Below are positions 13,924-46,941 of a stretch of 64,000 nt of DNA, piece by piece. The notes under the pieces are model-generated. The model was given only the letters and a program-made list of their open reading frames with translations, made no database searches and was not told where the DNA came from. Both the position numbers and the translations under genes were made by a program. The first letter of the stretch is position 1. Each line of letters starts with the position of its first letter. The stretch lies in the NCBI GenBank assembly GCA_964036275.1, contig OZ038433.1, positions 21,064,485 to 21,128,484 of the forward strand, written 5' to 3'. Origin of the DNA: Litoditis marina (lineage: Eukaryota; Nematoda; Chromadorea; Rhabditida; Rhabditidae).

Positions 13924-15286
13924 TTAACCGCGGATGCTTCTTCTGATGTTGGCCAAACGGCGTCTGAGGAATCTCTGTTTGCGGATGTTGCGGCGTTTCT
14001 TGATGATACGGTTCTTTCTGACCTTGGCGCCTGAAAAACAACCGTTTATCAATTTTAATCGATTTATATATTGTTTTATGATGGTTCATGTTTAAAATAC
14101 CGCATAAGTTTTAGAGGGCGTCTGGTCTTTTCTGTAACCGATCTGACCCTTTTCAATCAACTTGTCAAAACTTAAGCTAAGGATGAAAGCTCTGAAGTAA
14201 TGTAGTTACCGTGTAAAATGAAAATTTCCAGGGAGAGAAAAATAGATCAAACTCACGCTTGATAGCGTTGCGAAGGTTCTTAGCACGGTTTCTGGAAGCG
14301 GCGACCTTCACTCCTCCGACCTTATGATGACGGCGAGCACTGAAACAGAAAACCGATTTCCAAACAAAGTGCACTTTATCATTCCGTAGATCAAACTACA
14401 CACGTTTGAACAAAATTCATTCGGGTAACAAAGGCTTAAGAATGTTATAGTTATGATAAGATTTTCAGTATAAGGGTGAAATCATGGGTTAAACCTGTCT
14501 CGAGATAGTCTTTTCCAGTGCTGAGTTTGCGTGCGAAAGCGCCTAACACTGGTTTTCGCACTAGGTAGAATCTAGATGTCAAGCCAGTTTTTGAACGCAA
14601 AACTATGAAACGTGCTTCAGTGTAGAAGGTCATCGGTGTTTGGATACGTTAACTCTGCTGATATACGCGTGGTCGCTCTCTCACTCAGGCCTAGGAACTG
14701 CCTACCACGTCACTGAACTTGTCTGGATCGAAATTAGGTCGACGAACTTTCACTATCGGAGTTCACTATTTGTGTTTTCTCCAACTGAGTTTTCAGTTCT
14801 ATCGAACAAACTCAAATTACTTTTTTGCTTTTCAACTTGGAAGATATGGATATGTGGAATTAAATGGAACTCACACTGCTCGATGATGATGTTTCTTCGC
14901 GTCAGCGACGCTGACCACTGAAAAAGTTTCGTTAACATCAGTTAGGTCTATTTCAGGAGCACATTGTGACAACTCACATAATCTGGAATGACCGTTTGCT
15001 GTTGAGTGTACCTATACCAGTCATGTTCATTTATTTATGTTTGTTTCAATGTTGGTTTGGAGAGGACTAAAAATTCCGAAAATGAGGGAAAAGAAATAGT
15101 TAATAGTGTTTTACGCAGACTTTGGACAACGTAAAGTCTAGTGTAAAACTTTTGTTGCTCCGTTGATGTTTGTTGAAAGAAATGACTACCTGATTATTAT
15201 TTTTGTTACTTAATAACCAAATAAAAGAAAAACTAACGAGAGATCATGAAGAGAGCCAGTAGAAGGAAAACGTAGAACGAGCGCAT
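13924..15286 (-). CDS. Secreted cationic peptide gene, array copy 1 (93 aa)
   Basis: Exons 15238-15286, 14875-14917, 14257-14339 and 13924-14030. Exon 1 gives the signal peptide MRSFYVFLLLALFMIS. Its donor is C|GTTAGT instead of the G|GTATG/GTGAG form of the other copies, with phase 1 kept. Exon 2 is V-S-V-A-D-A-K-K followed by three His. Exon 3 begins ARRHHKVGGVKVAASRNR. Exon 4 encodes the Arg/Lys block of the LANIR class: KNRIIKKRRNIRKQRFLRRR, then LANIRRSIRG and stop. There are no cysteines after the signal peptide. It is the leftmost gene of the array and diverges from its neighbours mostly in exons 1-3. The family is not known to me. The signal peptide indicates secretion; the target is unknown. 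Confidence 0.8.
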
Positions 15287-15317
15287 GTTTGAGCTTGGTT
15301 TTTCGCTTAGCTGGGGG

Positions 15318-15325
15318 CTTTTATA
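15318..15325 (-). promoter_or_regulatory. TATA box of peptide copy 1
   Basis: TATAAAAG on the minus strand, about 32-40 bp upstream of the start codon, the same placement as in the other array genes. Confidence 0.65.
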
Positions 15326-15375
15326 GATGGTAAGATGGTAGTATAACAAGTTAGCCAGAGTTGTCTTCCGCAATC

Positions 15376-15660
15376 GAAACCAGTTGGTACCAGATGGAGG
15401 GGCAGGCTAAGCGTAGACGAGAACTGGTTTCTATATCCTAATGAGAAGCATTGTTCCAGGATAAGCAGTCCATGGTGGCTTCGACCAAATGCGAAGAACT
15501 ATGTTGTGGTTTATTAGAACAAGTTGTAGATTCATTATTTGAAGAAAAGTACCGGCTAGGTGTAGACAAGAACTGGTGACTAATATCATAATGAGAAGCA
15601 TTGTTTCCGCATAGACAGTTTCTGGGTGGCCTGGAAAAATCCATAGGTTCTATTTCAGAG
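15376..15660. repeat. Degenerate tandem duplication of about 150-170 bp
   Basis: GGCTAAGCGTAGACGAGAACTGG, followed by AATGAGAAGCATTGTT, recurs downstream as GGCTAGGTGTAGACAAGAACTGG and AATGAGAAGCATTGTT, with further similarity to about 15660. It lies just upstream of array copy 1. Confidence 0.65.
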
Positions 15661-16663
15661 CAAGGTGTAAATCTGTTATGTGAAAATACGGCGTATAAAG
15701 TTGGAACTGATACCCGCTGCATGGAAATTAGACCAAATCCCATGAGTTGAATGCGGAAAAAAAGAAAAGAAATAATCATTGCAAAATTCTTGATAGTTGG
15801 ATGACAATGTGTCAGATATCAATCAGCGCCGGACTTTTTGTACAATTGGCTCATATAAATGGCGGTAATGGGTGAACTGTGACAATTACGTATGCTGCTA
15901 TTATGAGAAAACCGAGCTCAAAGTTATATGTTATATATTAATTGTTAATCTCCGTTGGGTCAAAGTACTCACTAGCTCAGAAGCCTAAATTAGAGAGGTA
16001 TGGCGTCTTCATTATAAGGTGTATCGTAGGCCGAAACGGACGGAAATATCCGCTTCTACATGACGTTAAAAATGTGAATAACAGTTCTGCTGTAATAACT
16101 CTTGTTTCTATTCATCTTTAACAGTGGTTGAATTACGCTGAATTACAACTACCAAGAGTTTTTCTTTTGAAACTTAAAATTAAATGGTCTGGTTAGATGT
16201 GACACAGAAACTCGTACTGTTTCGTGTGGTCTTTTCGTAGTGTTGTTCCATTTTCGAGTCAATTCCCGCAATTTTCCCGACTTTTGAATCACTACAACCA
16301 CATAAATGCTTCAAAGGTGTTCCTCGATCTACGCATACGGTCAAGAGTTTCATCCATGTTTCCTAAATTCATTCGATATATCATAGTGCCATATCGTACT
16401 CTGTGTTAAGTTCAAAATGGCTTGTACAACGCTCATCGCAATCTTTCTCACGTAATTTCTATTAATCTGATCAGCCCTTCTTCTCGTTACACAAACAAAG
16501 TGTTGCAACCTACCGTGACATTTGCTTTGGTTTTCTGATGAAATGTAATAGTTTCCTGTACTTAATAGTATTTTTTGCTCATTTGTTCCTTACAATAATT
16601 TCATAACACACAAAAACGTGGTACCAGTATGATTTATTGCAACAGTATGACTCAAATGTTGTG

Positions 16664-17943
16664 TTAACCGCGTCTGCGAGCCCGTATATTGGCCAGTCGT
16701 CTCATGTTGAATCTTCTTCTTCTGTTTCGCATCCGTTGGCGTCGCAGTCTTCTATTTTTCCGGAAACGACGGAGACGCTCGCGTTTTCGTTGACCTGTTG
16801 TAACAAACCTTCAAGTTAATATTGTATATTTGGACAATTTTCAGTTAAAGTTGATGACCACAGCTCAGTTGTAGCTTGATACACGCCTTAGTTTCGACAT
16901 TTTCACCGAAAAGCAACACATTTGAACTACGAACAGAGCGGGTTTTGGCAACACACCCAGGTTCGATCCCCCGACACGGTTCGCTTTGAAAGAAAGAGCC
17001 TCACATTCACCATGTTCATGGAGGATTTCCATCACATAGCCAAGTTGACATTTGAATAGATCACTGTCATCATCCTTTTTCATACATACTTTACTCACAC
17101 TAAATTCAACTAAACAGTTACTCTGCGGAAAATACTACTTATTTTGGTACATATTTACTACACTAAACATGTTTCAGAAGATCTTTCACTGAGCACATCA
17201 TAAATGTACGATCTCAAACTCATAATGAGAGAAATACGAAAATAAACCGTGCCATAATTGTCGAGAAACGTTTTGGCTAATCTTAAAGGGAAAAAACTAA
17301 CGCATTCTCCGAGCTCTGATTCGCTGGTTCCGTTTAGCTCTGTTGATTTGATCCAACAGAGAATGGGCTTTCTGATTCTGAGTACGGCTGAAAACATACA
17401 GTAAGTATAGACTTGAAACATACAAGAAGGATAAGTCTGCAGAGAAAAACTGTATCTAAACTTTTTGCTTAATCTAACAATAATACAACGCGATATAAAA
17501 TTGTTCTCTTCTACAGTTCGTTCGTTTTTTGAGTTTGTCGGCATTCCTGCGAGCTTGAAGAAAAACTCACAGGGCATGTCCTTTCGAGTGTTTGTCCGAC
17601 AGACTGCATACTGAAAATAAACTTATTGTCTTTCACAAATCAAATAGAATCACTTAAAAATTGGTCGATGTACTCAACAAAACTAGAACTAGATTTGTGA
17701 CCAACAATGTTTTACCATTACAAAAAATAGTAAGAGAAAAAAATACAGCTTGCTGAAAGAGAGATTCTTTAACCTTTTTTTTCAAATTATTTTATTTGTC
17801 CAGGTCCAAATTTGAGATATGTATGTTCTTCTTCAACATGTTGTAAAACTTACAACATCACTAAGTTATATGTGTTAGGTAAGCTTCAACAAACCTGTCA
17901 GGACGCAAACCAGAAGTAGGATGAGTAGGGTTAGAGTGCGCAT
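16664..17943 (-). CDS. Secreted cationic peptide gene, array copy 2, divergent (101 aa)
   Basis: Exons 17895-17943, 17571-17610, 17302-17387 and 16664-16794. The signal peptide is MRTLTLLILLLVCVLT instead of the MRSF form. Exon 2 (CSLSDKHSKGHA) and exon 3 (RTQNQKAHSLLDQINRAKRN, then QRIRARRM) have little similarity to the other copies, yet splice phases 1-2-1 and exon lengths are preserved. Exon 4 is the longest of the array and almost pure arginine: QRKRERLRRFRKNRRLRRQR, then MRNRRRRFNMRRLANIRARR and RG-stop. It keeps the LANIR motif and the final Arg-Gly. It is either an older or a faster-evolving member. Exon 3 ends at a GTTAGT donor like copy 1. An AATAAA lies about 25 bp past the stop (complement of 16633-16638). 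Confidence 0.75.
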
Positions 17944-17976
17944 TATCGCGCGGCTCTCTATCCTCTCGACGTTCAG

Positions 17977-17986
17977 CTTTTATATA
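17977..17986 (-). promoter_or_regulatory. TATA box of peptide copy 2
   Basis: TATATAAAAG on the minus strand, about 34 bp upstream of the ATG. Confidence 0.65.
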
Positions 17987-18830
17987 AGTTGACTGGACAT
18001 GCTTCCGTGTGAGAAACCAGTAGTATGTTATTCCAAGTCCAGGAACTGATTCTCGTTCTCACCACGGTTAATCGAGCGTTATCTTAGATTTAGAATAATC
18101 TTTGGATGGTAGTTCTTAAACAACATTATCTGAACAGAGAACAGTTACGAGAACGAAAATTACGTTGGATGTAAAGCCGACGAAATATTCTGGGTTTGAA
18201 ATGAGATTTGATAATAATGTATAAATTATTACAATTTTGCAATAATTGAGTATCATGATTGAAATTGATATACTAAATTGAATTCATATGACGAAACGTG
18301 TCCCAATGCACCATGTGTTCAAAGCACTATCAACTAACAAAAAGGTGAAGTAATCAAACGACAATAGTCGAGCAGTTCCGAATAGCCAAACAGTAAAATA
18401 CATAAACTTGAGTTGGCCAATGTAACAGTAATACTCATATATCGTGATCTCATTCAGTCATAGTTTGATTCATATAATGTGAGTAAATGATTCATTATAA
18501 CCAAGTATCTATAAACAAAAATAGCCATTCACCAATTCAGCACAGGCCATATGAGCACTGGTTGCTTTTTAACTCGAAAGCCACCTGATTTAAGATCGCA
18601 AATAAAGATTTGACAGTCCGCAGAGCGTCTAGGCGATTGAAAAGAGTTTTGAATAGACAATTGTCAAAATAGTTTTGTAAGAAAGACGGTAGTCAGACAT
18701 ACGTAAAATAATTAATCTTCGTCATGGATGAAATTAGAACATGCAAATAATAATAATTTGACCAGGTGCAGCGTTTGCAAACTAAAAACTTACGTTGACC
18801 ACAATTCGAGATAATTCGTAAATCAATGTT

Positions 18831-18871
18831 ATCGCGCGCAGCGCGGAGCGCTACGCAGATTAGTTTTTGAT
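18831..18871. repeat. GC-rich 41-bp repeat, first copy
   Basis: The GCGCAGCGCGGAGCGCTACG core followed by CAGATTAGTTTTTGAT recurs at 41027-41067 with only two or three differences. The GC core is near-palindromic and stands out from the AT-rich surroundings. A related GAGCGCTTCGCGCGAATC occurs near 43401. Confidence 0.75.
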
Positions 18872-19545
18872 GCATACTTATTGTTTACACAAACCACGAG
18901 TTCGAGAAGCATTCGTGCGCAAATGGACGAAAGCGAAAGTGTTTGGAATGGTTTTGGCAACCTATTGTGAAGTTGAAAATCTCTCTCTGTTTCTTGACTG
19001 ATTTGACAGTAGTTTGTATTTGTAACGTAATATTTTATATTCAGACCTGCAACCTGAATATAACAGGCAATCTCTTGGAGGATATCCGTTCTCTTCTTAG
19101 AAGACCCTTTTCCTCCAACTAACAGAGCCCTTTCGACGCCAACAACATTTTCACACAAGAACCAGTGGTACGAAAGAAACATAAATCCTGTAACGTATCA
19201 TAAGGCTCTTAATTGGTCACCAGCAGATCGGAACAAGACAAAGAAATGTCGTAGAAATAAAATGTTACCTAAGAAATGTTAGATAGGTCAATGGTTTTAT
19301 TCACATTGATAAGCATTCTCCAAAGTATCTAAATTACATGATCCGATTTTGTTTGAAGTGTGAAGTTTCCAAGCCACAAATGTTCCACATAATGAAATCG
19401 CATGAGATCAACTACCAAGTTTTCATTCTTGCTCTTTCCACTTTCTTTCACATTGTCGCATATAAAGATAAGTTGATGGGGAAATATTCATTACATACGT
19501 TTCGAATAAATAAGAGGCAGTTTAAAGTCGGAAATGGTTGTTTTC

Positions 19546-20775
19546 TTATCCGCGTGCGTTTTGCTTTCTGATGTTGGCCAAACGGCGTCGGAGGAATCTC
19601 TGCTTCTTAATGTTGCGTCGTCTCTTGATCACACGGTTCTTTCTCACTCTGGCGCCTGAAATTCACGGGCATGGTATACTCCGTTTCACCAATCGATGAC
19701 TTTCTACAGTAATCTTTCGAATATTCAAGGCTGTTTATCTATTAAACAGACGAACTTTTAGATTCACTGTTTTCTAGGCTCAAGTTAACCAGTGTGGAGA
19801 ACAAAATCACGAAGTTTAAACTATTTTCCATACCTAGAAGATATCAAAAATTTGCTTGAAAGATTTGCAAGCTTACTGTCGAGGGCTATTGTTGCGTGAA
19901 ACAGACTATACAATTGTTTTGATAGGTTCGACTGTGAAAAACACCCTCCAGTTTTGCTTGAAAATAAAGTTCCACAACTAGTGTAGACACAAATGTAGAA
20001 AACTGTGCAATCTCAAAACCACCCTCCATTTTAGTTCGAAAATAATGTTCTACAATTGGTATAAGTACAAATGTCGAAAGTAGTCTTCATACTGGTTTCG
20101 AAATGATTGAGACAACCTTACTGATTTGAAGTGGAAGTGATTTAGTTCACGAAGAGTCAACATTTTCCGTTTTCAACATTACAAATTTCGTTAGTGTTAT
20201 ATCAAATGATTCGAATTGAAACTCACGAACGATAGCTCTGTTGAGTGCACGTGTGCGGGCTCTGCTGGCGGCCAGGCTAACACCACCCTTTTTATGATGG
20301 GCACTGAATAAAAACAGTTTTTCTAGGCAATACAATTTGATTCAGTACATTATATATCTTTAACTTGGAAAAGATACCGAAATTATGTATTGAAAATAAC
20401 TAACTACACTTCAACAAACTTGTATTGTAGATTTTAGGAACTTTTAGCTTTATTTGTATCTGCTCTTATAACTGAATGACTCACACTTTGTGATGACGAC
20501 GACCTCTGGCCTCCGCAACATTCACGACTGAAAACAGAATGTTGACTTATAATAATTACTTCTGACAATTGATTTTAAAACTAGTAACTATATTATTAAA
20601 TGAATACGAGCTCTCAGATTCAGTTAATAGCACAGTGAAAACTGCAGCGAACAGAATGTTGTTATGATCATTAAAGTGGTAAAAAAAGTAGTAATCAAAT
20701 AGAAATAAGAATATTGAGAACCATACCTGCGAGGATGCAGAGCACAAGAAGGAGGAAGATAACGAAGGAACGCAT
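19546..20775 (-). CDS. Secreted cationic peptide gene, array copy 3 (92 aa)
   Basis: Exons 20727-20775, 20485-20527, 20227-20303 and 19546-19655. Signal peptide MRSFVIFLLLVLCILA. Exon 2 is VVNVAEARGRRHHKV. Exon 3 is AHHKKGGVSLAASRARTRAL then NRAIV. Exon 4 is ARVRKNRVIKRRRNIKKQRF, then LRRRLANIRKQNARG-stop. It uses GGATAA rather than GGTTAA at its end, but the C-terminal Arg-Gly is kept. Paired His residues sit on both sides of the exon 2/3 junction. It is the closest relative of copy 1 in exon 4. Confidence 0.82.
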
Positions 20776-20804
20776 GTTCGATGCTTATTCCAACTAGTAG
20801 ACGC

Positions 20805-20812
20805 CTTTTATA
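20805..20812 (-). promoter_or_regulatory. TATA box of peptide copy 3
   Basis: TATAAAAG on the minus strand, about 30 bp upstream of the ATG at 20775. Confidence 0.65.
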
Positions 20813-21517: not shown

Positions 21518-23280
21518 TTAACCGCGATGTTTTCTGGCGGCACGACGTTTGTGGGCCCTCTTAGGTTTGGCGCCTGGAAAGACCTTGTCAGCTACAAAAT
21601 ACTCAAACTCACGTATTGTGAGTCGTTCTGGCGTGATTCCAAGCCGATCGCCTTTTAAGAGTTTAATCCCAGACTGATGGAACAGCAGAGAAACTGCGTA
21701 TTTTTATAAAGAGTTGGAGACACGACAATCGAATTAATTCTGAATATCAAGTTTTCAATAAACACGAACGCAATTCCTCAATTGTATCCTTTGTTTGGTG
21801 AACTGATGAAATTAGGGACCAAGTTCGAACACGTTGCTAATCTGTCTAGTAATATTAGAAAACAGAACAGAATGTTCACAGCACTTTATCTGACAATGAA
21901 AGTTATACTTTTTTATACAAAAACAAATGAAAGATTCACGAAACATTTCAAAATGAGTCTGTGTCAAGTGTTATTGTCGTGTTTCAGTAGCACTTGATAA
22001 TGAACACGTTAATTGCAATTAAACTCACGATGTGCCCGTCTTTTGTGGTGCTTCTTGGGCTTTGGCTTGAGGGCTTTGTTGAGGTCCCGATGAATTTTCT
22101 CGAGAGGTCCTCTGAAACTGACAACTATACTAGAAGTAAATTGAATAGACACGTACATTTAGCATTCCAATGAGGCATCGTGCACTTTTTCATTGCACGT
22201 TCCATAGTTCTGCTGTGTTCAACATGTTTCACGTCTATGCAATAGACTAACAGTATATTACATATTTACAATGCGGTTTTGTTCTGAACGAGTCGATGAT
22301 TAAAGGAGACCGAAAGGCAACATGGTTTCTCTTAAAGCTGCTGTATCCAACTTTTGATTGGACGCGTTGCGTGTCGTCGCGCGAGATTGTCATGTGAATG
22401 TCACGTGGACTGATAAAATTGATATACGAGTTATTTGTGCTCTCTGATCTCAATACAGTTTGAAGCAGCAGGAAACAAAACCTCTGCTCAAGTTGTGTTC
22501 CGGTCTCCTTTAAGTCGTTTCTGCTGGTTTACTGCTACTTTTTCAGCCAAAACTGAGAGTCTTCACCAGTAAATACAGAGAACGTTTTCAAGTGCACAAT
22601 TTACTCGGTATGGCATTGGTTTCCATTTTGTTTTCAAATTTCGTTCATTGGGAACATTTCTATTGTGGTAGGAAGTATGCAATATTACTGTTTCTACAGT
22701 GCAAACAGAGGTTTTCTTTAAACAAATAAAAACTCACACTTTGTGATGAGCTTTTCGTGCATCAGCGACGTTCACAACTGAAACAGTAACCGTACGTCGT
22801 GGTACTTCGTGAAACAACTTCTACCTTTCAATGAGGTCTTATATTTTTTTTAAAATCCAATTTTAACTGAAAGTTATTGTTTTTTGTGCTCATTCTTTCT
22901 CCTGTTTTTTTTTTGTTCGAGAGAGATAGAGAGAGGTTTGCGTGTTGACAAAGCAATAGTGAGGTTCTGACAACTTGGAAAAAACTTCCAGTGTTGTATT
23001 GACCAGTTAGCGAAAGTGAGATACATACTTATTCTCGACCTAGAACTTTTGTATATTAGGTATATAGTTGAATCAAATAATAAAGTTAGCCACTACAGAT
23101 TTTGATCAATTCATTGATTATTATTGTATTTATAAGCTCAAATTCTGGTGTCATTACAGGGGTTTGAATAACTCGTTAATTATTAACGTAATCTAATTCA
23201 GGTATCGGAATGACTGAAAGCTGTGCCATACCTGCGAGAATGCAGAGAACTAGAAAGAAGAATATGGTGAGAGAACGCAT
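21518..23280 (-). CDS. Secreted cationic peptide gene, array copy 4, short form (75 aa)
   Basis: Exons 23232-23280, 22738-22777, 22029-22111 and 21518-21573. Signal peptide MRSLTIFFFLVLCILA. Exon 2 VVNVADARKAHHKV is typical of the family. Exon 3 is replaced by a different sequence, GPLEKIHRDLNKALKPKPKK then HHKRRAH, in which the His pair has moved to the end. Exon 4 is cut to 17 residues, AKPKRAHKRRAARKHRG, which matches the tail of the AAKKHARG class and not the LANIR class. Intron 2 carries two different MITEs side by side. It shows that terminal exons of different kinds can be attached to the same conserved 5' half. Confidence 0.78.
22126..22257 (+). repeat. MITE family A, copy 1
   Basis: About 132 bp with imperfect terminal inverted repeats of about 28 bp (TATACTAGAAGTAAATTGAA at one end, its near-complement at the other, closing with CAGTATA). 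Related copies lie at 33686-33817, 39450-39553 and 42109-42243. It has no coding capacity and sits in intron 2 of array copy 4. Confidence 0.75.
22300..22513 (+). repeat. MITE family B, copy 1 (TTAA-flanked)
   Basis: The element runs from TTAAAGGAGACCG to CCGGTCTCCTTTAA, i.e. TTAA plus an inverted AGGAGACC terminus. The same roughly 210-bp unit is found in the opposite orientation at 55832-56036. TTAA at both ends fits a piggyBac-type target duplication, which is inference. Confidence 0.78.
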
Positions 23281-24420: not shown

Positions 24421-25674
24421 TTAACCGCGAGCGTGTTTCTTGGCGGCACGATGTTTGTGGGCCTTCCGGGCCTTCTGTTTGTTCAGGTTACGACGCTTCT
24501 GGATCTTTCTGGCCTTGGCTTCTAAAACATATATGTTAGAATAGCCGTTAACCAAACGAATCAATTTAATGAATAAATTGAGATGAAACACTTAAAATCA
24601 GGTTACACGTTGTATGCAGTGAGTGCACTTCTTTCTCATCCATTCTACATGTGGCTTTGTTGAAAAGTAAAATGTTTGTCAGCTGGATTTACAAAATTGA
24701 TTTCTACAAATTAATATCGAATGAATGTTTAACATTTTCAAATTTTCAATAAGAAAAAGTTGACCTGCAAAATAAGAAGTTTAAGAAGACTTACGGTTGA
24801 ATGCTCTCTTGCGGGCGAATGCCTTTCTTCTACGAGCAGCAGCTAGTTGGGCACCTCTCTTGGCATGGTGGACAGCACCACTGTAAAAACAACTTTATTC
24901 AGTATTTGAATACGTTCTCTGGAATACCCCAGCTGTTTTATCATGTTCTTTGTCTGTTTCGCGAAACTACTATTCTGTTTGGACAAAATAGTAGAAAAAC
25001 ATCAAATGTTTGATAAATTTGAATCTGAAGGCCACTGCTGTATGCGAATTTCACCCTAAAAACAAATACAGTATTCCGTTGGGGATAAAAGATTGTTCGA
25101 TTTTGTCGATTTAAATCAATGCTTCGCGTTTAGAATGTTGTCACATAATTGTTTTACCCCATCGTCTTATAACAGTAATAACATAAATAAGTGACTCATA
25201 ACAGTACAAAGTACAGTTGTACCAATTCTATTTTCTGGAAATTCAAGTTGACTTCAATGTTTTATTAGATTAATATTGTATAGCCGTCATGAACTGTTTT
25301 GCAAAAAAAGTAACTCACACTTTGCCGTGAGAAGCAGCTGCTTCGGATACGTTGACGACTGAAATTAATATAACTATTTCTTTGATCATCTTCTCTGTAC
25401 TTATTTCAATTGTAGCTCTCCTTGTTCTGTGACAAGGTATTTACACCGGTCAACATTCGCGAAATATTCTTGCAACAAGGTTGTGCAGTTCATAAAGTTA
25501 ACAAAAGGAGATAAAGAAGAACTTCTGAAATATTTTTTGACTTTATACTGCTACTGATAGAAATATTGACGTACTGCTTCAAACGACCCCTGTATTGTAG
25601 GTTGAAATAGTAGAAGGAATCTTACCTGCGAGAAGGCAGAGCACCAAGAAGAAGAAAATAACGAAAGAACGCAT
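24421..25674 (-). CDS. Secreted cationic peptide gene, array copy 5 (91 aa)
   Basis: Exons 25626-25674, 25319-25358, 24795-24880 and 24421-24521. Signal peptide MRSFVIFFFLVLCLLA. Exon 2 is VVNVSEAAASHGKV. Exon 3 is GAVHHAKRGAQLAAARRRKA then FARKRAFN. Exon 4 is the second terminal class: QAKARKIQKRRNLNKQKARK, then AHKHRAAKKHARG-stop. From exon 3 on there is no Asp or Glu. Exon 3 is almost residue-identical to copies 7 and 9, pointing to recent duplication or gene conversion. A 15-nt promoter box shared with those copies lies just upstream of the TATA box. Its exons 3-4 and intron 3 also recur at 46.5-46.9 kb on the other strand. Confidence 0.83.
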
Positions 25675-25705
25675 GTTGGCTTGTGTTTCAGTTAGAAGTA
25701 ACCGT

Positions 25706-25735
25706 CTTTTTATAGATGATATCGTATTGGATACC
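25706..25735 (-). promoter_or_regulatory. TATA box and conserved upstream box of peptide copy 5
   Basis: TATAAAAAG (complement of 25706-25714) is preceded by GGTATCCAATACGAT (complement of 25721-25735). The same 15-mer and TATA spacing occur upstream of copies 7 and 9. Confidence 0.65.
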
Positions 25736-27189: not shown

Positions 27190-27221
27190 GAGCTTAGCAG
27201 TAACCATTAGCAAGACTGAAC

Positions 27222-29070
27222 ATGCGTTCTTTTGTAATATTACTCTTCTTGGTTCTCTGCATTCTCGCAGGTATTCATACTTATTCAATTTTAAATACAT
27301 GAAAAGCGTATGTGAGCGCACTGATTGTATTTGTAATATATGAAAAACAGAAACGATGGGAAAACCAAAAACTTTACTTTGGAAAAAATTACTTCCACAA
27401 GTGTCAGTCTTACAAAACATATTAACATTTTATGGAAGTTTTCAAACCACCGGACGTGTGTATAAGAAAGAATGAATGTTTCGAAGAGAACATGTCATTT
27501 ATGGTTTGAGGCAACTTACTTGTTAAACTCCGAACTATGTTTTTTTTCTTTAAATTTTTATTCCAGTGGTGAACGTGGCCGAGGCAAAAGCTCGCCATCG
27601 CAAAGTGTGAGTTGTACTACCTTCAAACAGACTTCTAAAACTTCGTTAGCAGGCCTTTCATATATTATGGAAGAACACAATCATTGTGAAACTTTATAAT
27701 CACAAAACATCATTCCAACATTGAGAATACATATCAAACAAACAAACAAGTACCTATCGTACAACTGAACATCTGAGAAAAGTGTTCCGTTATGTTGAAA
27801 TCATTTCCTGCCACTCCAGTCTGGTATTCTCGATAGCTTTGTTTACTTTTTTCTCGAACTTTCCCAGGGTCATTCGGTCCATGCTTTTTCAAAAAAAGCA
27901 AAGACAAATATTATCCTTTCTAACGAAACGACTGCAGTTACTGATTCTACTACTTATAATTCACACCATTCTCACTGAGGCTCCTACAGTACATACTCTA
28001 ACATTTCAATATCTGTTGTCTACTGCGCACTTCAATTTTTCGATATATTTGTAATAGGAACCGAACCAAATAGTAAAGTAGTTAACGTTTCCTATAAAAT
28101 TCATCTAATTCAATCAGATTTGGAGTTTTGCATTCGTACTGTAGGCGTCTCAGTAGGAATGCAAGATACTATTCAATTGAAAAATTGAAACTTTTTAATT
28201 ATCTCAATTTTTATCCAGAGCCGCTCATCATCATAAGAAAGGTGGTGCTTTGGCAGCCGGAAGAGGACGCGCACGCTCCCTGAGCAGAGCTGTTTTCCGT
28301 GAGTTGGACGAAAGTTCTCTCTGACTAACAGTTCTCGGACTTAGACGCTTCCCAGCCAATTGGCCAGTTACAGTCGTGGCCAACAGAAAGGCGAGAGGGT
28401 ACTGTATATCTCACTTTTCGCTATGTACGCGTACATGTCTTTGATGCCAAAGGTTGTGTGCTCTTATCGCGCAGTGGTTAGCGCACTGCTACGGAGCTTT
28501 TGCTCGCAAGTTCGATTCCGGCAAGAGACAGAAACTTATAAATTTGGCACCCACTATATACTATACTCTCGTAGCGGCCTCGAAGAGGGAGTGAGAGAAA
28601 CGCAGACTGTCTGAGACTGTCTGCGGTCTCATTGATCTCCATGCTCTCTCGATATGCAAGCTAGCCGATCGCGTAGATCTTTGTGAGGTCATTCTTATCA
28701 AAACGCCAGCAGCGTGTGAGTAGTTCAGACTTGTTTTCCTCAAAAGCAAAATAGACCTTCGGTTGTTTGCTTTTCCTATTTCAATCTGTAAAATGAAGCC
28801 GATTTTGAAAATCGAATATGCTGAAAAGAGTAAAATCGAACATCAAGAGCCAAAAGTTAGGTATCAATGTAGTTAACGAGAGGTTATAAAACTCATCGAT
28901 AGTTACACTTTCGTTCTGTCGGTTTTATTCTCCACCTGATCCATCTTATTTTACTGTTTTCAGGCGCCAGAGTCAAGAAGAATCGTCTCCTCAAAAAACG
29001 TCGCAACATCAAGAGACAAAGAGTTCTCAGACGTCGTTTGGCCAACATCAGAAGAAGCATCCGCGGTTAA
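27222..29070 (+). CDS. Secreted cationic peptide gene, array copy 6 (91 aa)
   Basis: Exons 27222-27270, 27567-27606, 28219-28298 and 28964-29070, phases 1-2-1, all with GT-AG introns. Signal peptide MRSFVILLFLVLCILA. Exon 2 is VVNVAEAKARHRKV. Exon 3 is AAHHHKKGGALAAGRGRARS then LSRAVF. Exon 4 is ARVKKNRLLKKRRNIKRQRV, then LRRRLANIRRSIRG-stop. Three consecutive His open exon 3. An AATAAA at 29117-29122 suggests a short 3' UTR. Intron 3 carries a tRNA-like SINE. It is the inverted partner of copy 8, with identical exon 4 protein. The function is unknown. The signal peptide plus polycation plus C-terminal Gly suggests a processed, possibly amidated secreted peptide. Confidence 0.83.
28373..28558 (+). 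repeat. tRNA-like SINE, copy 1
   Basis: Begins GTCGTGGCCAACAGAAAGGC and includes GGGTACTGTATATCTCA. A tRNA-like part follows with A-box CGCAGTGGTTAGCGC and B-box GTTCGATTCC, and the element ends near TTTGGCACCCACTATA. The tRNA-like part lies in the 3' half, about 100 bp from the 5' end. Other copies are at 32130, 53132 and 57881 (minus). Confidence 0.8.
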
Positions 29071-29703: not shown

Positions 29704-30773
29704 TTAACCGCGAGCGTGTTTCTTGGCGGCACGATGTTTGTGGGCCTTCTTTGCCTTCTGGGCCTTCTGTTTCTGAAGATTGCGACGCTTCTGGATCTTT
29801 CTGGCCTTGGCTTCTGGAAACACACAATAATACAATTACATTTTTCATAGCATGTCAGACACTCTAAAGTATGGTTTGGAATACAATACAAAAGTTCGGT
29901 TACATTTCAAATTCTCCCAAAATCTAAAACTAGCTGGAAAACACTTACGATGGAATGCTCTCTTGCGGGCGAATGCCTTTCTTCTACGAGCAGCAGCTAG
30001 TTGGGCACCTCTCTTGGCATGGTGGACAGCACCACTGAAATGATAGACTATGAATAGGCAACTGTTTTTGGTAGTTCAAAGAAAGTTTACATTTTGGAAA
30101 CGAACACCTTTCGTAATTCTATTGCTCCCCTGATTTGGATATATTGATTTTCTACATTTCTCAAACCTTTCAAGGTGCTTTCAGACGTTTCTAGTTTGAA
30201 GATCTTTTGAAATGTCTCCATAAAAATTAATATATAGATCGATCAATGGTTTTGCTTTCGGAAAATTAATATTTTTCAAGCTAGAGATTGGATAAAGAGC
30301 AACTCACACTTTGCTGTGAGTAGCAGCAGCTTCGGAAACATTGACGACTGAAAAGGAATGCATATGTGTTTGATTTGTTATTTGTCTATGATTTCGTTCT
30401 TCTTCTATTCTTTTCAGTAGTGGAATTACATATTATTCACAGAATATTTAGGTGGGGCCGACTAAAAATTTCATTCAACTGGATGGACGACGATTAGGCA
30501 AAATTGCGTTCAACTTGGCTCTGTATTTCAATCAGAAATAAAGATGGAACTTTGTTTTTCAACTCTATTTATTTGTTCACTACAGACGTTGTGAGCGGAA
30601 TCTGCTCATCAAAATAAGCTTCATCGTAGCCTACTCGAACCCTACAGAGAGAGAGTTTCTGAACGATACAAATGCTACTCGTGTTATTATATCAAATTTT
30701 CTGATATTGTACAAAGAATCTTACCTGCGAGAAGACAGAGCACCAAAACGAAGAAAATAACAAAAGAACGCAT
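29704..30773 (-). CDS. Secreted cationic peptide gene, array copy 7 (94 aa)
   Basis: Exons 30725-30773, 30308-30347, 29949-30034 and 29704-29813. Signal peptide MRSFVIFFVLVLCLLA. Exon 2 VVNVSEAAATHSKV. Exon 3 is GAVHHAKRGAQLAAARRRKA then FARKRAFH, as in copy 9. Exon 4 is of the AAKKHARG class, with an extra QKAK-type repeat relative to copy 5: NLQKQKAQKAKKAHKHR before AAKKHARG-stop. Upstream DNA to about 30910 is nearly identical to that of copy 5, so the two are tandem duplicates. It sits in the loop of the inverted duplication formed by copies 6 and 8. Confidence 0.83.
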
Positions 30774-31700: not shown

Positions 31701-33060
31701 TTAACCGCGGATGCTTCTCCTGATGTTTGCCAAACGACGTCTGAGAACTCTTTGTCTCTTGATGTTGCGACGTTTTTTGAGGAGACGATTCTTCTTGACT
31801 CGAGCGCCTGAAAACAGTAAACTAAGATGCATCAGGTAGAGCATGAAACCGAATAAACCAAAATATGGGGAAAGGGAACTTTTCTTTTGTTGAAAGGTTT
31901 TGTTGTTGAGGAATTCTAACGGTAAAAATAAGTCTGAAATATTCACACACTGCTAGCGTAATGATGAGAATGACCTCACAAAGACGCGATCGGCTAGCTT
32001 GATTATCGAGAGAGCCTGGAGGTCAATGAGACCGCAGACAGTCTCAGACAGTTTGCGTTTCTCTCTTTCTCGTTACTCGTCGGAGATGATCAATTGGCTG
32101 GGAATCGTCTGATTACGAGAACTGTTATAGTCGTCGCCAACGGAAAGGCGGGAGGGTACTGTATATCTCATTTTTCGCTGTGTACGCACACATGACTTCG
32201 ATTTCAGAGGTTGCCGGTTATATGCATTAATAGCGCAGTGGTTAGCGTTAGCGCCCTGCTACGGATATTTTACTCGCAGGTTCGATACCGGCGAGAAACA
32301 AAAGATTATAAATTTGACACCCACTATAATCAGAAAGAACTTTCACAACTCACGGAAAACAGCTCTGTTCAGGGACCGTGCGCGTCCTCTTCCGGCTGCC
32401 AAAGGACCCTTTTTATGATGATGAGCGGCTCTGGAGGAGAAAGTAGACAATCGAATAGACACTTTTTCAGTCTTTTCCATTACTAAAGGGACGCCTACAG
32501 TACGAATGCAAAATTTGCCATCCGTATTTACCACTACGTGAATGTTATCTAAACATTAATACATTTGATTTTCGAGTCTCTGTTACAAAAAATGCTCGGA
32601 AATACGTTTGAAGAGAAATCATACAAACAGAATACAGTTGTGTGTATCTTTTTTCATTGATTTCCGAAAACCTGACAATGAAGTTTCAAAAAGTTAATTC
32701 GAAGGAAGTACAACTCACACTTTACGATGACGGGTTTTTGCCTCGGCCACGTTCACGACTGAAAAAAGTTTGAAAAACAAATAAAATTCTGAGTTTGGTT
32801 AGCTTAAAATTACAATGACATGTCCTTTTGGCAAGATTCGTTCGTTTTTCTATTGTTCGATGGTTTGACTAAATCCATAAGAGGTTTATGTATAAGGCTA
32901 ACATTTACATATTTGGATTTGCCTGTCCCACTTTCTTATTCGTAGAATACAAATATTTTTTTAAGTTCGCAAACGCTTTTTATGAATTTAAAGTTAAATA
33001 AGTATGTATACCTGCGAGAATGCAGAGAACCAAGAATAGGAATATAACAAAAGAACGCAT
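31701..33060 (-). CDS. Secreted cationic peptide gene, array copy 8 (90 aa)
   Basis: Exons 33012-33060, 32719-32758, 32354-32430 and 31701-31807. Signal peptide MRSFVIFLFLVLCILA. Exon 2 VVNVAEAKTRHRKV. Exon 3 AAHHHKKGPLAAGRGRARSL then NRAVF. Exon 4 is identical in protein to copy 6 (KKNRLLKKRRNIKRQRVLRR core, ending LANIRRSIRG). Exon 3 has GP where copy 6 has GGA, a one-codon deletion. Intron 3 has a SINE at a different site and in the opposite relative orientation from the one in copy 6, so it arrived after the inverted duplication. Confidence 0.83.
32130..32328 (+). repeat. tRNA-like SINE, copy 2
   Basis: Begins GTCGTCGCCAACGGAAAGGC, contains GAGGGTACTGTATATCTCA, the A-box region GCGCAGTGGTTAGCG and B-box GGTTCGATACC, and ends near TTTGACACCCACTATA. 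The A-box region has a small internal duplication (GTTAGCGTTAGCGCC). It lies in intron 3 of array copy 8, antisense to the gene. Confidence 0.8.
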
Positions 33061-40654: not shown

Positions 40655-41026
40655 TTTTGGCGCCGATTCAACGAACGGGACTGGCACCGTCGACAAATTT
40701 ACAATATTTGAGACGCCAACTCTTTTGAAATGTAGTCATTATTCTCAATACCACATCAAAATCCTTCATGCTGAAACTTTCTTGTTTTTCGTTTTGGCGC
40801 CAATTGGCACACGCGTCTGGCGCCGGAACGAAACAAAATTCCTAAGTTTTTGAGCTACCAGCTCACACTACTACATGTGTCCATTATTGAATGGAGAAAA
40901 CTTCAAACGATTCAATCGACGATTTTGTGTGTTTTGGTTTTGGCGCCATTTGGCGCCTGTTCCGAGCGCCAGAAGATAAAATTCGATTTCGAAAATGTAA
41001 ATCTATATATCACATTGGAGTGTTCA

Positions 41027-41067
41027 ATCGCGCGCAGCGCGAAGCGCTGCGCAGATTAGTTTTTGAT
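41027..41067. repeat. GC-rich 41-bp repeat, second copy
   Basis: Matches 18831-18871, with a GCGCGAAGCGCTGCGCAGAT core followed by TAGTTTTTGAT. Confidence 0.75.
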
Positions 41068-41590
41068 CACAACATTGCGGACTTTCAAAAGTGGTTTTAT
41101 GCCATTTTCTCAAAAACTCCTGAACGGATTTTTGAGATTTTGATGGAAAGAGATAGAGGAGGAAAGGCTTTATCATTGAGCTATTCGATATTTAATGTGC
41201 GACCAGTGATCTACAGTTATGCTGAATATCGTCTCGCAAAAATGTCTTCCGACGGCGGCCGCGTGGCGTGGCGCGGCGTGGCGCGGCGGCCGCAAAACCG
41301 ACGAATTCAACCGATTCGTCTGAAATTTGGAATATAGTTAGAAACAGCAGAGTTATGTGTAAATCTGAAATCTTGGACCAATCGGTTAAAAATGAGTCAT
41401 TTTATCGCCTTGGAAACATTGCATTTAGCTGCTTTGACAATCACTTCTAGATGTGCGGAGTGTGCGCAGTGAGCTGTTGTTTCGCCTTTTGGTGGTTTGA
41501 ATAGATCAAAATATATTGGAAAAACAATTGTGTTAATCCGTAGAGATCCTGACTACATAAAAAGGTTAATCGAACAAAAACAAAAATGTT

Positions 41591-41662
41591 GTCCGTGAAA
41601 GGATTCGAACCCTCGGCCTACTGAACTGTAGTGCGCTGCTCTGCCGACTGAGCCAAATCGTC
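41591..41662 (-). pseudogene. tRNA-like sequence, probably a tRNA pseudogene
   Basis: The minus strand has a good D-arm with A box (TTGGCTCAGTCGGCAGAGC) and a T-arm with B box (GGGTTCGAATCC) at tRNA spacing. The acceptor strands (GACGATT against CACGGAC) pair poorly. The anticodon arm around ACTACAGTTCAGTAGG does not give a clean seven-base loop. A working tRNA is therefore unlikely. Confidence 0.55.
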
Positions 41663-41893
41663 ACGAAGGAAGAAAAAATGGACGGCGCCACACGTGCGCT
41701 GCCCGAAATCAAGGATTGATCACGGTTTCTGAGAGAATGCTTACTAACCAGAGTTCTAACGCAGTTTATGTTCTGCAAATCAACTTAGTATTCATTGTTA
41801 CGTTCAAAAAAGTTTAATAATAATTGATTAGATGCTCATTATTTCCTATCTATTGATTCATTATTTCCTTCGGAAATATAGAAAATGAGGACA

Positions 41894-42477
41894 ATTTGTA
41901 TAAAAAAACGATGTAAAGTGAGAGACGATTAGCTTTTGAGATTGAACTGCATGGAATATAGAAAAGGAGGACAATAACTCAAGAGGGAAATAAAAAATCT
42001 AATCTCGCAATTTTCATGATCATCCTGACAGACTGATTCAAAAAATATATGCTAAATCTTTTAGAAAAGTCCGCTTACACTAAAAACGTATCTGAAACAA
42101 AAATCAGCTATACCGTCAGTCTATCGCACAGTCACGTGAAACATGTTAAACACAGCAGAACTCGGAAACGTGAAACGACAAAGTGCACACTTAGGCTATT
42201 AGAATGCTAACTTTACATGAATATTCAAGAAACTTATAGTATACTCTGTTCTGTTATCATTTTTGAATCAATGGTGATAATCATATTAGGACGTTTCATC
42301 TAATTGTTTGCTGCAAGGTTTTTTTTCACTGAAAAACAAAATGTTTTTGACCCATGAAAATTGCGAGATTAGATTTTTTATTTCCCTCTTGAGTTATTGT
42401 CCTCCTTTTCTATATTCCATGCAGTTCAATCTCAAAAGCTAATCGTCTCTCACTTTACATCGTTTTTTTATACAAAT
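41894..42477. repeat. Perfect 125-bp inverted repeat with 334-bp spacer
   Basis: Arms 41894-42018 and 42353-42477 are exact reverse complements by eye (for example CGATGTAAAGTGAGAGACGA in the left arm). The spacer contains a family A MITE (42109-42243). The structure could be a foldback transposon or a recent inverted duplication, and its transcript would form a long double-stranded stem. Confidence 0.88.
42109..42243 (-). repeat. MITE family A, copy 4
   Basis: In reverse orientation: the CACAGTCACGTGAAACATGT end lies on the left and a CTAACTTTACATGAATATTC-type end on the right. It sits inside the spacer of the 125-bp inverted repeat. Confidence 0.72.
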
Positions 42478-43055
42478 ATCTATTAACTTTAAACAGTTTC
42501 GACGACAACTAGTTATTTTCTTACTTTGACGCTAATTGGCGCCAGCGCCAGGCGCCAACAAGATTTTTTCCCATTTTTAGACTAAGCAACTTACTTGACA
42601 TGTGATAATTATTGTCTGTACCAAATTTCAGACTATTTCATGGACGATGTCAAGTGTTTAGGTTTCGGCGCCATTTAGCGCCTAGTCCGAGCGCCAGAAC
42701 GAGAATTCAAGTTTTGCAAACGGAAATCCACATTTTACAAAGTATTCCAACTTTTGAGCTTGAAATGTGCAATGAAGTGAGAGCAATGTTCACTTCTCTT
42801 AATTCTCCACTAGAAGACGGTCAGTAAGTCTTTTCGTCCTGTTTTCATTTTCTCAGAGGGGTTCAACTGATGATGACCCAACCCTCTAAGAAAACCCAAA
42901 ACCGTCTTGAATCAGGGTCGAAACGGTTTTGAGAACATCTCTTACTGAGCCCATTAACCTAATCATATTCCAATTCTATTAATTTGAAACAATGTAGTTG
43001 ACGACAACTGGTGTTTTGCCGCTTTTGGCGCCTATTCGCGCCCGCGCTTGGCGCC

Positions 43056-44523
43056 AGAGATTAGATATACTCTTCATACTCAGCGGGACAGGCTATCGTT
43101 CGCCATACAATAGATATTTGAATAGTAAGCCAAATTGGTTGAATAGTTTTTCCACTACGATGCGGACACAATTCCGTGAGGGACGAGCGACGAGGGACGA
43201 ATTACGGCTGAACTTTTCAACAACGACACGAAACCATAAATCAGGCGAAAATAATCCGATTTGGCTAAAACTCTCACACAATGTTCAATTTGTGATTCTC
43301 AAACGTTTTCTTCTCTTGGTTTTTAGATTATATTTGGAGCTTTTCGTGAATTATAAGGAAAACACGAGTCCGCAATGGCCGAACCAAAGACAACTCACGC
43401 AGAGCGCTTCGCGCGAATCTTTAAAAAAATTAATTTGACGTTCTACTATCCTTCCAAAACGATGATCTCACAACGTGCCTCGGGCGTGAATTTCATGACA
43501 AATCTCGCGGATTCTGAGTATTGAGTGTATTGGAGATGTTTTTACTCTGAGTACCGAGATGAATCACTTGTGTACATGCACGTGTACAGCCATGTAAATA
43601 ATTCAGGTCTCAATGCATGGTCTCATAGTATGATTCGGTGGTGATCTGTTTCAGTTTCAAGTTCCTGATTCAAGCAGAAAAAAGTGGTGGAAATTATCGA
43701 AATAAATTGAAACATCTTTTGCGAGCTGACATAACGCAGAAGTAGCGTGGACGTAGAATTGTGAAATTTCAAAAAAAAGATTATATAATGGAAGTCTGCT
43801 TGTTTTTTTATTGAAAATCTCGGTATTGCTATTCTAAAAAATTGCTTTTTATTCAATTGTGTCAGATGTTAATTTTAGCTGGAATCCTTAAAGTAATACA
43901 CCACCTTTTAGCTCCCAACTAATACATTAATAGCTTCCTCGTTCGGCAACCTTTTCGTTGTGAAAACATTTGTATCCTGACTCGATTATTTTGGTAATAC
44001 TCGACGAGTGAATGCAGCTGTTTGGTAGATATTTCGGTGACGTGGTCTACTGCGTTCAGAATGTTCTCTGAGAATTACTGTAAACATTCAAAGTTCCCAA
44101 TACCTGTTTACTAATGAAACCATGGTCTTCCCTTAGAATTTTGCGATCTGACGTACTAATCGAGGTGGAGAATCGGATTTCAGAGAATGTGAGATATTTT
44201 ACACCAAATTTTGAGGTATTTTTACACGTTCCAAAACACTATAAAACATGAATATGCCAGTTTAAAAACTGATATTAACTCAATGTAACTCTAAAACTTT
44301 ACCACGTGAACCAATGACGAAGACGATGCACCAATACCCGTCATCTTTTCGAACAAACTGTCGTTCTTCTGAAGTTTTACAACCTTAGTTTACACAAAAT
44401 CACCTGTATCGATGGACTATTGACGAAACGTTTTGTTTTGCAGTTCTTGTTTCGCGCCAACTCGTTTTTTTTCAGGCAGACTTTTCAATGGACAGCACTT
44501 TTATCGGACACCTGTTTTTTCGG
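43056..44523. other. Spacer upstream of array copy 9
   Basis: The first 400 bp continues repeat-derived DNA, including a GAGCGCTTCGCGCGAATC word related to the 41-bp repeat. Nothing coding is recognised up to the promoter of copy 9. Confidence 0.5.
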
Positions 44524-44552
44524 GGTATCCAATACGATCTCGTGTATAAAAT
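44524..44552 (+). promoter_or_regulatory. TATA box and conserved upstream box of peptide copy 9
   Basis: GGTATCCAATACGAT (44524-44538) followed by TATAAAAT (44545-44552), 40 bp before the ATG. The 15-mer is identical in copies 5 and 7. Confidence 0.68.
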
Positions 44553-44584
44553 GGTCGTGATCAGGGACGGTAGTACATCCAAAC

Positions 44585-46315
44585 ATGCGCTCATTCGTCA
44601 TTTTCTTCTTCTTGGTGCTCTGCCTTCTCGCAGGTGAGATTTGTACACTCATCGTTGTTTTAAAATCAGAAACACTCATTTTGCATTACTAGTCCGATGA
44701 TTGATTGATTGATTGATTTATTACGCATATAAATACGTGAAAAAATGAGATGAGAAGTGGGAAAAAGTGGTGGAAACAGAAATAAAACATAGAACAAAGT
44801 GATAAAGTGGGATGTGAAATGAGAACAGTACTACAACAACACAGTAACGATATATATGTCGGAATGATGATGGTTCACACAACAATAAAAACGGAAACTG
44901 AGCAAGAAGTTAACTAACACAAGCCACTGACCTACAAAACTCAAATGGGTTCCAACAGAAACGTTCAATTCATTAATTAGTTAAGGGTTTCAAACAAATA
45001 TTTTTTCATACATTTGACTGAAACAGGTACAGATTTATTTTTCGTGATTTTCAAGTATTTAGAACCAGCTCTGACAGTGAAAAATTGTGCTCTAGTCTTG
45101 AATTTGGGAGCGGTGAAACGTAATTTCAACCTTGTACCCCTGGTTCGCGAGTTTTCAAAGGTATAAAACTTTGCAGTCTCAACGCCAGAGTTTCCATGTA
45201 CAATCTTGTGAAGGATTGTCTATTTCCAAGTCCCAAACTCTAGTATACGAGTCGACAACGATTAAATTTCCCTAGATTCAAAAGATGCAGCTATCAATAT
45301 CAACAATTGTCATGATATGAAGTTAGAAAATGCACTTTAATTTGGTTCCTAGCTGAGTTGGAGCACTGGTTACTGCAATACGCAAGCTTACCTAGTCGTC
45401 CCCCACTTGACCCGGTGATTATACTATATTCTTATAATATGTAATTAATTCAAGAGAAGAATGAAACAAAAACAATAATAACTCACGAAACTTACCGCTG
45501 AATTTATCTTTTCAGTTGTCAACGTTTCCGAAGCAGCTGGTACTCACGGCAAAGTGTAAGTTGCTCTTTATCCACTCTCTAGCTTCATCTCATGGTCACA
45601 CGTTGAGAAATTTACTACGATTTTCACAGATGTCTTTATTTTAAGGGGATATTAAGTTCCACCTAAAAATCTCTGAAACAATCTTAGAAGTTTATTTGAA
45701 TAACACAGAATTATGAAAGGTATTTCATCACACAGCACATCACTAAGCACATATTTCCATAATATTTCATGTTTGTTCTTAAAGGGACTTGTTTTTTTTT
45801 CTTTAAGAAAACAACTTCTTTTTCCTACACTAACGCAGTTGCTTATTCATAGTCTATCATTTCAGTGGTGCTGTCCACCATGCCAAGAGAGGTGCCCAAC
45901 TAGCTGCTGCTCGTAGAAGAAAGGCATTCGCCCGCAAGAGAGCATTCCATCGTAAGTGTTTTCCAGCTAGTTTTTCTTTTATTTTCTCCTCTTGTATATC
46001 ACATGCTTGCATGTAAATAAATCAATCAATCAATCTAAGTAAATTTACTAAACCAGTTTTTCAAGACGAAATATAACATACCCAATGTATAAAGTATAAG
46101 AAGATACAAAAAACATATATGAATAACCATACAATACAAAAGTTAAACCTGGAATATATCTACCATGCAACCAAAACCAGTTGACTCATACTGCATGTTT
46201 TTCAGAAGCCAAGGCGAGAAAGATCCAGAAGCGTCGCAACCTCCAGAAACAGAAGGCCCAGAAGGCAAAGAAGGCTCACAAACATCGTGCCGCCAAGAAA
46301 CACGCTCGCGGTTAA
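44585..46315 (+). CDS. Secreted cationic peptide gene, array copy 9 (94 aa)
   Basis: Exons 44585-44633, 45516-45555, 45866-45951 and 46206-46315. Signal peptide MRSFVIFFFLVLCLLA. Exon 2 VVNVSEAAGTHGKV. Exon 3 GAVHHAKRGAQLAAARRRKA then FARKRAFH. Exon 4 AKARKIQKRRNLQKQKAQKA, then KKAHKHRAAKKHARG-stop. The last 64 residues contain about 25 Lys+Arg and no acidic residue. The protein is closest to copy 7. It lies 11.5 kb from the rest of the array, beyond the globin gene and repeats. An AATAAA is at 46362-46367. Intron 1 is the longest first intron of the array. A second set of 3' exons follows directly (46504-46941), so alternative 3' exon use is possible. Confidence 0.83.
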
Positions 46316-46503
46316 GAAACTCTTCTGATACATACTCACCTTATTTATTATTTTATTGCCGAATAAAACTTTTCACTGTAATATGTGTTTTATGCTCACA
46401 GTACTTCATCGAAGAGCAGCAGGTGCTAAATGTAAATTGAAAGTAATACGTAGCAACTACAATCAAGAATGAACGTTCACTGTGATAAAATTTTGTTTTT
46501 GAT

Positions 46504-46941
46504 TTGCTGCTCGTAGAAGAAAGGCATTCGCCAGCAACAGAGCATTCAACCGTAAGTATTCTCAAACTTCTTATTTTGCAGGTCAACTTTTTCTTATTGA
46601 AAATCTGAAAATGTTAAACATTCATTTGACATTATTGATTACTTTGAAGAAATCAATTTTGTAAATCCAGCTACCAAACATTTTACTTTTGAACAAAGCC
46701 ACATGTAGAATGGATGAGAAGGAAGTGCACTCACTGCATACAATGTGTAACCTGATTTCAAGTTTTTATCTCAATTCATTCATTAAATTGATTCGTTAGG
46801 TTTACGGCTATTCTAACGTATATGTTTTCAGAAGCCAAGGCCAGAAAGATCCAGAAGCGTCGCAACCTGAACAAACAGAAGGCCCAGAAGGCCCAGAAGG
46901 CCCACAAACATCGTGCCGCCAAGAAACACGCTCGCGGTTAA
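46504..46941 (+). pseudogene. Partial peptide gene, array copy 10 (3' exons only)
   Basis: It contains the second half of an exon 3 (46504-46551, AARRRKAFASNRAFN, with an intact GTAAGT donor) and a complete exon 4 (46832-46941). That exon encodes AKARKIQKRRNLNKQKAQKA, then QKAHKHRAAKKHARG-stop. The start of exon 3 and all of exons 1-2 are missing. The intron between them matches intron 3 of copy 5, and the AFN end also matches copy 5, so it derives from a copy-5-like gene, not from copy 9. The flanks after the two stop codons (about 46370-46500 and 47000-47130) are also duplicates. It may be dead, or exon 4 could serve copy 9 as an alternative last exon. Confidence 0.7.

Follow-up and report, generated by a model that had tools for sequence, protein, structure and literature searches.

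Comparison with Known Peptide Systems

A survey of antimicrobial peptides in nematodes was built from five known groups and by its own statement may overlook rapidly evolved peptides of distant species (PMC10506718). The family considered here is encoded in Litoditis marina by a tandem gene cluster in a 64,000-base window (contig OZ038433.1, hereafter C4, bases 21064485-21128484; gene coordinates below are window positions) and, to judge from its predicted proteins, almost certainly consists of secreted polycations. Its products, for which secretion is predicted, share with the surveyed groups the character of small secreted nematode peptides, yet none of the five groups fits by its defining feature. 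The mature peptide of nematode cecropins is an amphipathic alpha-helix (PMC10506718 Table 1); exon 4 of gene A in the present family also models as a helix, but the hydrophobic moment of exon 4 does not exceed that of shuffled sequences in any of the 11 complete members, and no cecropin match is found in Pfam. CS-alpha-beta defensins, with at least six cysteines, and diapausins, with a six-cysteine motif, differ from a family whose mature part is cysteine-free in 11 of 11 members, as do the nemapores, whose saposin-like fold holds three disulphides and for which no saposin match was obtained in Pfam. GRSP, finally, contain more than 17% glycine in their mature part, compared with 3-7% in every member of the family.

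Outside the nematodes, the nearest of the kinds compared come from other invertebrates. Like the present family, the mussel myticalins are multigene, taxon-restricted, linear and cationic; they carry a signal peptide, which in the family is assigned by eye, and C-terminal amidation, a possibility in the family, has been predicted for many of them (PMC5577615). Their hypervariable central peptide of 23-42 residues precedes an anionic C-terminal extension that is removed at a dibasic site (PMC5577615), whereas the Litoditis proteins lack an acidic extension, contain little proline, and have a longer mature part that is conserved in close pairs and itself ends in glycine. The arminins and periculins of Hydra are likewise clustered, taxon-restricted paralogues encoding small secreted peptides, with the difference that most Hydra peptides combine a bipartite charge with a complex cysteine pattern (PMC10945409), neither an acidic half nor mature-part cysteine being found in the family. 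The molluscidins of oyster and abalone, compared by description, are short and likely unstructured, with many dibasic repeats and reported antibacterial activity; they share the absence of an anionic pro-region, but their precursors lack the signal peptide that is recognized by eye in the family (PMC5577615). The combination of a signal peptide, assigned by eye, with no acidic part contrasts with myticalins, most Hydra peptides and molluscidins.

Within the nematodes, SELF-1 of Pristionchus pacificus, also compared by description, resembles the family as a small taxon-restricted peptide with a paralogue; it has 63 amino acids and a hypervariable C-terminus (PMC12684174, PMC10721034), as opposed to the constant Arg-Gly end described below. 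Orphan genes are common in nematodes, making up about 10% of the genes per Pristionchus species (PMC12684174), so the surprise of a family of this kind is limited.

Gene Family and Evidence of Selection

The cluster occupies positions 13924-46941, limits that coincide exactly with the lower boundary of exon 4 in gene A and with the last base of exon 4 in a broken copy. The original prediction of nine complete genes and one partial copy, encoding proteins of 75-101 amino acids from four exons in phases 1-2-1, could be rebuilt in full, with GT-AG introns in all nine genes. It underestimated the extent of the family, since two further intact relatives, genes J and K (C4:23329969-23330940 and C4:23333249-23335622), were found by protein searches of the genome 2.2 Mb from the cluster, giving 11 complete members. 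In these searches, for which four members served as queries against 262 Mb in 522 contigs (C4 itself being 55.65 Mb), matches with an expectation value (E) below 1 were confined to C4, where they comprised the window cluster and genes J and K; five weaker matches on C1, C3 and C16 (E 1.1-7.4) were taken as chance. More dispersed copies were also sought with the back-translated pattern RRRL[A/S]NIR, which occurred at eight places, six of them known exons and two on C3, where no exon-4-like frame ending in Arg-Gly-stop was visible by eye in the surrounding 300 bases; the reversed-pattern control likewise gave two matches. Short exons limit such genome searches, and strongly diverged members may escape them.

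Five close pairs (F/H, G/I, E/G, E/I and J/K) provide the main evidence on selection. Their exons are 80-100% identical and their 15 introns 44-69% identical, the latter often over partial-length alignments; six of the 15 introns are no more similar than a single shuffled-intron control (48%), and the F/H introns (55-69%) lie above it. The ratio of nonsynonymous to synonymous substitution rates (dN/dS) is 0.09 for F/H, 0.06 for G/I, 0.13 for J/K, 0.16 for E/I and 0.18 for E/G. More distant pairs give 0.13-0.52 where the ratio is defined, values that mean less owing to partial saturation of dS, and the protein tree resolves little, with six of eight inner branches open. Because exons are conserved, introns have diverged and dN/dS is 0.06-0.18 in close pairs, the sequence comparisons argue that these are real, intact and selectively maintained genes. 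The view that the loci are non-functional, as chance frames, pseudogenes or a histone or ribosomal derivative, could appeal to the low-complexity basic sequence and to one truncated copy, but is scarcely credible: all 11 intact genes share their splice phases, dN/dS stays well under 1, the introns have diverged far beyond the exons, and none of the 11 proteins has a Pfam match over the curated cut-off, the ground on which the histone or ribosomal derivative in particular was rejected.

A separate observation concerns exon 3 of genes G (29949-30034) and I (45866-45951), which agree at every one of their 86 bases, including the silent sites (100% identity). In the same pair, residues 1-23, which form the signal region, have a high dS of about 0.9, and intron identity is 54-59%. 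The exon identity may reflect gene conversion over a short tract or an unusual constraint.

Gene Models and Promoters

Gene starts were located with a six-frame motif scan for the signal peptide, which hit 19 places; nine of these proved to be true starts. Where several splice options existed, the TTTCAG-like acceptor aligning with the paralogues was chosen, a choice that departs from the top-scored option in genes C and D. Seven genes lie on the minus strand. Gene A (13924..15286, 93 amino acids) has exons at 15238-15286, 14875-14917, 14257-14339 and 13924-14030; gene B (16664..17943, 101 amino acids), the most diverged member, at 17895-17943, 17571-17610, 17302-17387 and 16664-16794; and gene C (19546..20775, 92 amino acids) at 20727-20775, 20485-20527, 20227-20303 and 19546-19655, the TTATTCAG acceptor aligned with the paralogues being used instead of the top-scored one. 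Gene D (21518..23280, 75 amino acids) comprises 23232-23280, 22738-22777, 22029-22111 and 21518-21573, with a TTTCAG acceptor in place of the top-scored exon-3 acceptor, which would add two residues. Gene E (24421..25674, 91 amino acids) follows with 25626-25674, 25319-25358, 24795-24880 and 24421-24521, gene G (29704..30773, 94 amino acids) with 30725-30773, 30308-30347, 29949-30034 and 29704-29813, and gene H (31701..33060, 90 amino acids) with 33012-33060, 32719-32758, 32354-32430 and 31701-31807.

The two plus-strand genes are F (27222..29070, 91 amino acids; exons 27222-27270, 27567-27606, 28219-28298 and 28964-29070) and I (44585..46315, 94 amino acids; exons 44585-44633, 45516-45555, 45866-45951 and 46206-46315). 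In the partial copy after gene I, also on the plus strand (46505..46941), exon 4 (46832-46941) is whole and closes with Arg-Gly-stop, and exon 3 is represented by its 3' half, at about 46505-46551, along with the donor site; exons 1 and 2 were not seen. Inside this exon 4, a 9-base tandem repeat of CAGAAGGCC is present in 3.2 copies (46876..46904, plus strand). Exon 4 of gene E is one triplet shorter than those of gene G and the partial copy, a difference that fits gain or loss of one CAGAAGGCC unit.

All 11 genes have TATAAA 37-41 bases upstream of the ATG. Transcription generally starts about 30 bases downstream of a TATA box, and a start at that distance would leave a leader of about 10 bases. 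Between the TATA box and the ATG no TTTCAG-type acceptor is present, only single AG pairs, so the messages are probably not trans-spliced. GATA-like sites occur within 200 bases upstream in five of the 11 genes, at differing positions.

Predicted Proteins

Exon 1, of 16 codons plus one base, encodes the hydrophobic core of the signal region, which was assigned by eye from a Met-Arg start, a hydrophobic stretch and a cleavage site after residue 23 (V-A-E-A or similar). With cleavage assumed there, alanine stands at position -1 and alanine, serine or threonine at -3 in 10 of 11 members, gene B being the one that deviates. The earlier description of the proteins as cysteine-free holds for the mature part, counted from residue 24, in all 11 members; it fails for the signal region, since residue 13 is a cysteine in 10 of the 11 proteins, and in gene B residue 18, close to where signal and mature part meet, is another. 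The mature part, 52-78 residues long, is as basic as had been proposed: across the 11 members it contains 37-45% lysine plus arginine, 4-15% histidine, 0-4% aspartate plus glutamate and 3-7% glycine, and has a net charge of +21 to +33. Acidic residues are absent from the mature part in nine members and number two each in B and D.

Two compositional types can be distinguished, one richer in arginine, leucine and isoleucine (A, C, F, H, J and K), which carries R-R-L-A/S-N-I-R close to its C-terminus, and one richer in alanine, lysine and histidine (E, G and I); D and B stand apart. All 11 proteins terminate in Arg-Gly, though the preceding residue varies. Because C-terminal glycine is the substrate for peptide amidation, this end is a possible C-terminal amidation signal.

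Constraint on charge was assessed mainly in four non-overlapping pairs, of whose 33 amino-acid differences pair A/C contributes 23. Acidic residues take part in none of the 33 (expected 10%, P = 0.03), and six are swaps between lysine and arginine (expected 6%, P = 0.015). Comparisons of overlapping pairs count shared history repeatedly and so leave the weight on the four pairs; in two such sets, aspartate or glutamate is involved in none of 20 and none of 125 differences (expected 11% and 10%), and a positive residue gives way to a neutral one in none of the 20 and in 20 of the 125 (expected 30% and 33%).

Search for Relatives

No Pfam model matched any of the 11 proteins over the curated cut-off, the best sub-threshold match being POP1_C with gene D (E 0.0011). 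Gene A, the sole member compared with PDB, gave one match only (E 0.4). Homology to histones or ribosomal proteins, which would have spoken against a new family, was found in neither comparison. Two profiles, one built from nine members and one from six, were searched against 5.8 billion proteins and retrieved nothing at E 0.01 and E 10, in a collection where a control nematode protein obtained 273 matches, the 120 listed including Caenorhabditis, Pristionchus, Haemonchus, Necator, Ancylostoma and Steinernema. As the control shows that the collection holds nematodes, the absence of relatives is informative for annotated proteomes, which are what the profile searches cover, as distinct from unannotated genomes; their word-based preselection may miss distant relatives. 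The profile search of nematode proteomes that had been proposed alongside the original prediction yielded no match, and the claim that no known family corresponds to these genes stands for Pfam and for both profile searches. Five exact family peptide strings occurred in no open-licence paper searched, and no description of the family was found in the literature on nematode, hookworm, parasitic-nematode, seminal or lysine/arginine-rich peptides or on SELF-1, judged by titles and the starts of abstracts. The family is apparently an undescribed orphan, without relatives in what was searched.

Proposed Function and Alternatives

The reading that we tentatively favor, with a chance somewhat short of even, is that of lineage-restricted secreted linear polycations that bind polyanions, with defence against microbes as their likeliest use; secretion, amidation, the binding target, the tissue and the antimicrobial role are parts that we infer. 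Each gene, with its TATA box near the ATG, would encode a signal peptide, spanning exon 1 and the beginning of exon 2, and immediately behind it the mature chain, about 52-78 residues long and lacking an anionic pro-region. The glycine at the C-terminus would probably be converted to an amide, giving an Arg-amide end that resists carboxypeptidases and removing the last negative charge. The chain, or at least its exon-4 part, would form an alpha-helix with positive charge all round and bind electrostatically to anionic polymers and surfaces such as bacterial and fungal envelopes, extracellular DNA and acidic glycans, most likely in defence at a surface exposed to microbes. This proposal draws on the purifying selection, the exon-intron contrast, the retained charge, the Arg-Gly ends, the TATA spacing and a modeled helix, and on the precedent of tandem, taxon-restricted families of cationic secreted peptides that serve as antimicrobial peptides in invertebrates, such as those of Hydra (PMC10945409) and the myticalins (PMC5577615). 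Taken by itself, an antimicrobial job likewise has a chance somewhat below even.

The helix is suggested by a single-sequence AlphaFold2 model of gene A exon 4, which shows one helix over residues 2-33 with a mean predicted local distance difference test score (pLDDT) of 94 in the best of five models and 82-94 across the five. Basic peptides rich in alanine, leucine and arginine often come out as helices in such models.

Several results weigh against the antimicrobial proposal. The helical hydrophobic moment of exon 4 (100 degrees) did not exceed that of 1000 shuffles in any of the 11 members (P 0.18-0.98), the corresponding values for the whole mature part being P 0.08-1.0, and isoleucine, leucine, valine, phenylalanine, methionine and tryptophan together make up 10-21% of the mature part. 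These values do not support an amphipathic membrane-lytic helix, a reading that was rejected; a non-amphipathic helix such as the modeled one would speak for action via charge rather than membrane insertion. In the four non-overlapping pairs positive charge is lost in 10 of the 33 differences, against 40% expected, which is no clear depletion (P = 0.17); on these counts acidic residues appear to be avoided and the precise charge count to drift. Arms-race peptides, moreover, do not usually show purifying selection on the mature part, and the acidic part present in myticalins and most Hydra peptides is lacking in the family.

The main rival, unlikely as it is, would make these proteins secreted structural or reproductive polycations that bind the worm's own polyanions, such as eggshell or cuticle glycans or seminal or sperm-surface material. 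An extreme and uniform charge without amphipathicity would suit that role, as would dN/dS of 0.06-0.18 in close pairs and the absence of an anionic pro-region. A TATA box with a very short leader is a design of abundant tissue-specific products, and the family has the former and probably the latter. Such a structural or reproductive family was nevertheless encountered neither in the family, structure and protein searches nor in the titles and abstract starts of the literature on seminal and sperm peptides.

An improbable alternative, raised in part by the original prediction, is that of secreted effectors whose targets, after entry into host or prey cells, would be nucleic acid or the nucleus. 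The probable secretion signal and a basic composition like that of nucleic-acid-binding proteins are consistent with it, but basic motifs are unavoidable in such a composition and prove nothing; the idea of nuclear targeting has no evidence of its own, since any protein this basic will trivially contain stretches that look like nuclear signals. A low dN/dS is also unlike that of the usual host-facing effector. Self- or kin-recognition peptides like SELF-1 are more improbable still: they too form a small taxon-restricted family, and major sperm protein matches (described below) give a weak hint of diplogastrid ancestry, but the last two residues are constant in all 11 members and close pairs are under purifying selection, the grounds on which a hypervariable recognition peptide was rejected.

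Returning to the secreted polyanion-binding polycations, what sets them apart is an extreme charge of one sign, an Arg-Gly end that never varies and the lack of an acidic pro-region. It is rather doubtful, though conceivable, that they represent a new class, namely a long, uniformly polycationic and probably amidated secreted helix without acidic pro-region, encoded by a small chromosome-restricted family under purifying selection and acting through bulk charge rather than amphipathic insertion. If antimicrobial, the family would be a concrete case that a survey built from known groups would miss, and nematodes would also make cysteine-free linear polycations. How an unshielded chain of charge +21 to +33 would leave the cell is a question that the family raises, and a design this simple lends itself to direct tests with synthetic peptides.

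Surroundings in the Window and the Genome

Between genes H and I, a perfect 125-base inverted repeat (41894-42018 and 42353-42477, 334 bases apart) resembles a foldback element. Upstream of the cluster, several overlapping long frames on the minus strand at 6138-8983, one with a zinc-knuckle-like CxxCxxxxHxxxxC motif recognized by eye, are perhaps a degraded retroelement; the four frames scanned had no Pfam match over cut-off. Two related chemoreceptor-like frames on the minus strand (1937-2389 and 11872-12471) have Srh as their best Pfam match, below cut-off. Downstream of the cluster, at 51304-52614 on the plus strand, two ankyrin-repeat frames exceed the Pfam cut-offs and a third is weaker; they are followed to about 56.4 kb by membrane-like frames that look TRPV-like by eye, without confirmation from Pfam.

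Elsewhere in the genome, 163 major sperm protein matches were counted, fragments included, with some short tandem series on C3. At seven of eight compared sperm-protein loci the best match, among the 120 listed of 273, was Pristionchus mayeri P0011 (86-93%). The genome also contains matches to the nematode FAR family, and the same query drew no match in any of 14 control genomes. Over 41 residues, 24 of them identical, one FAR-type exon aligns with PDB 4uet, a Necator structure.

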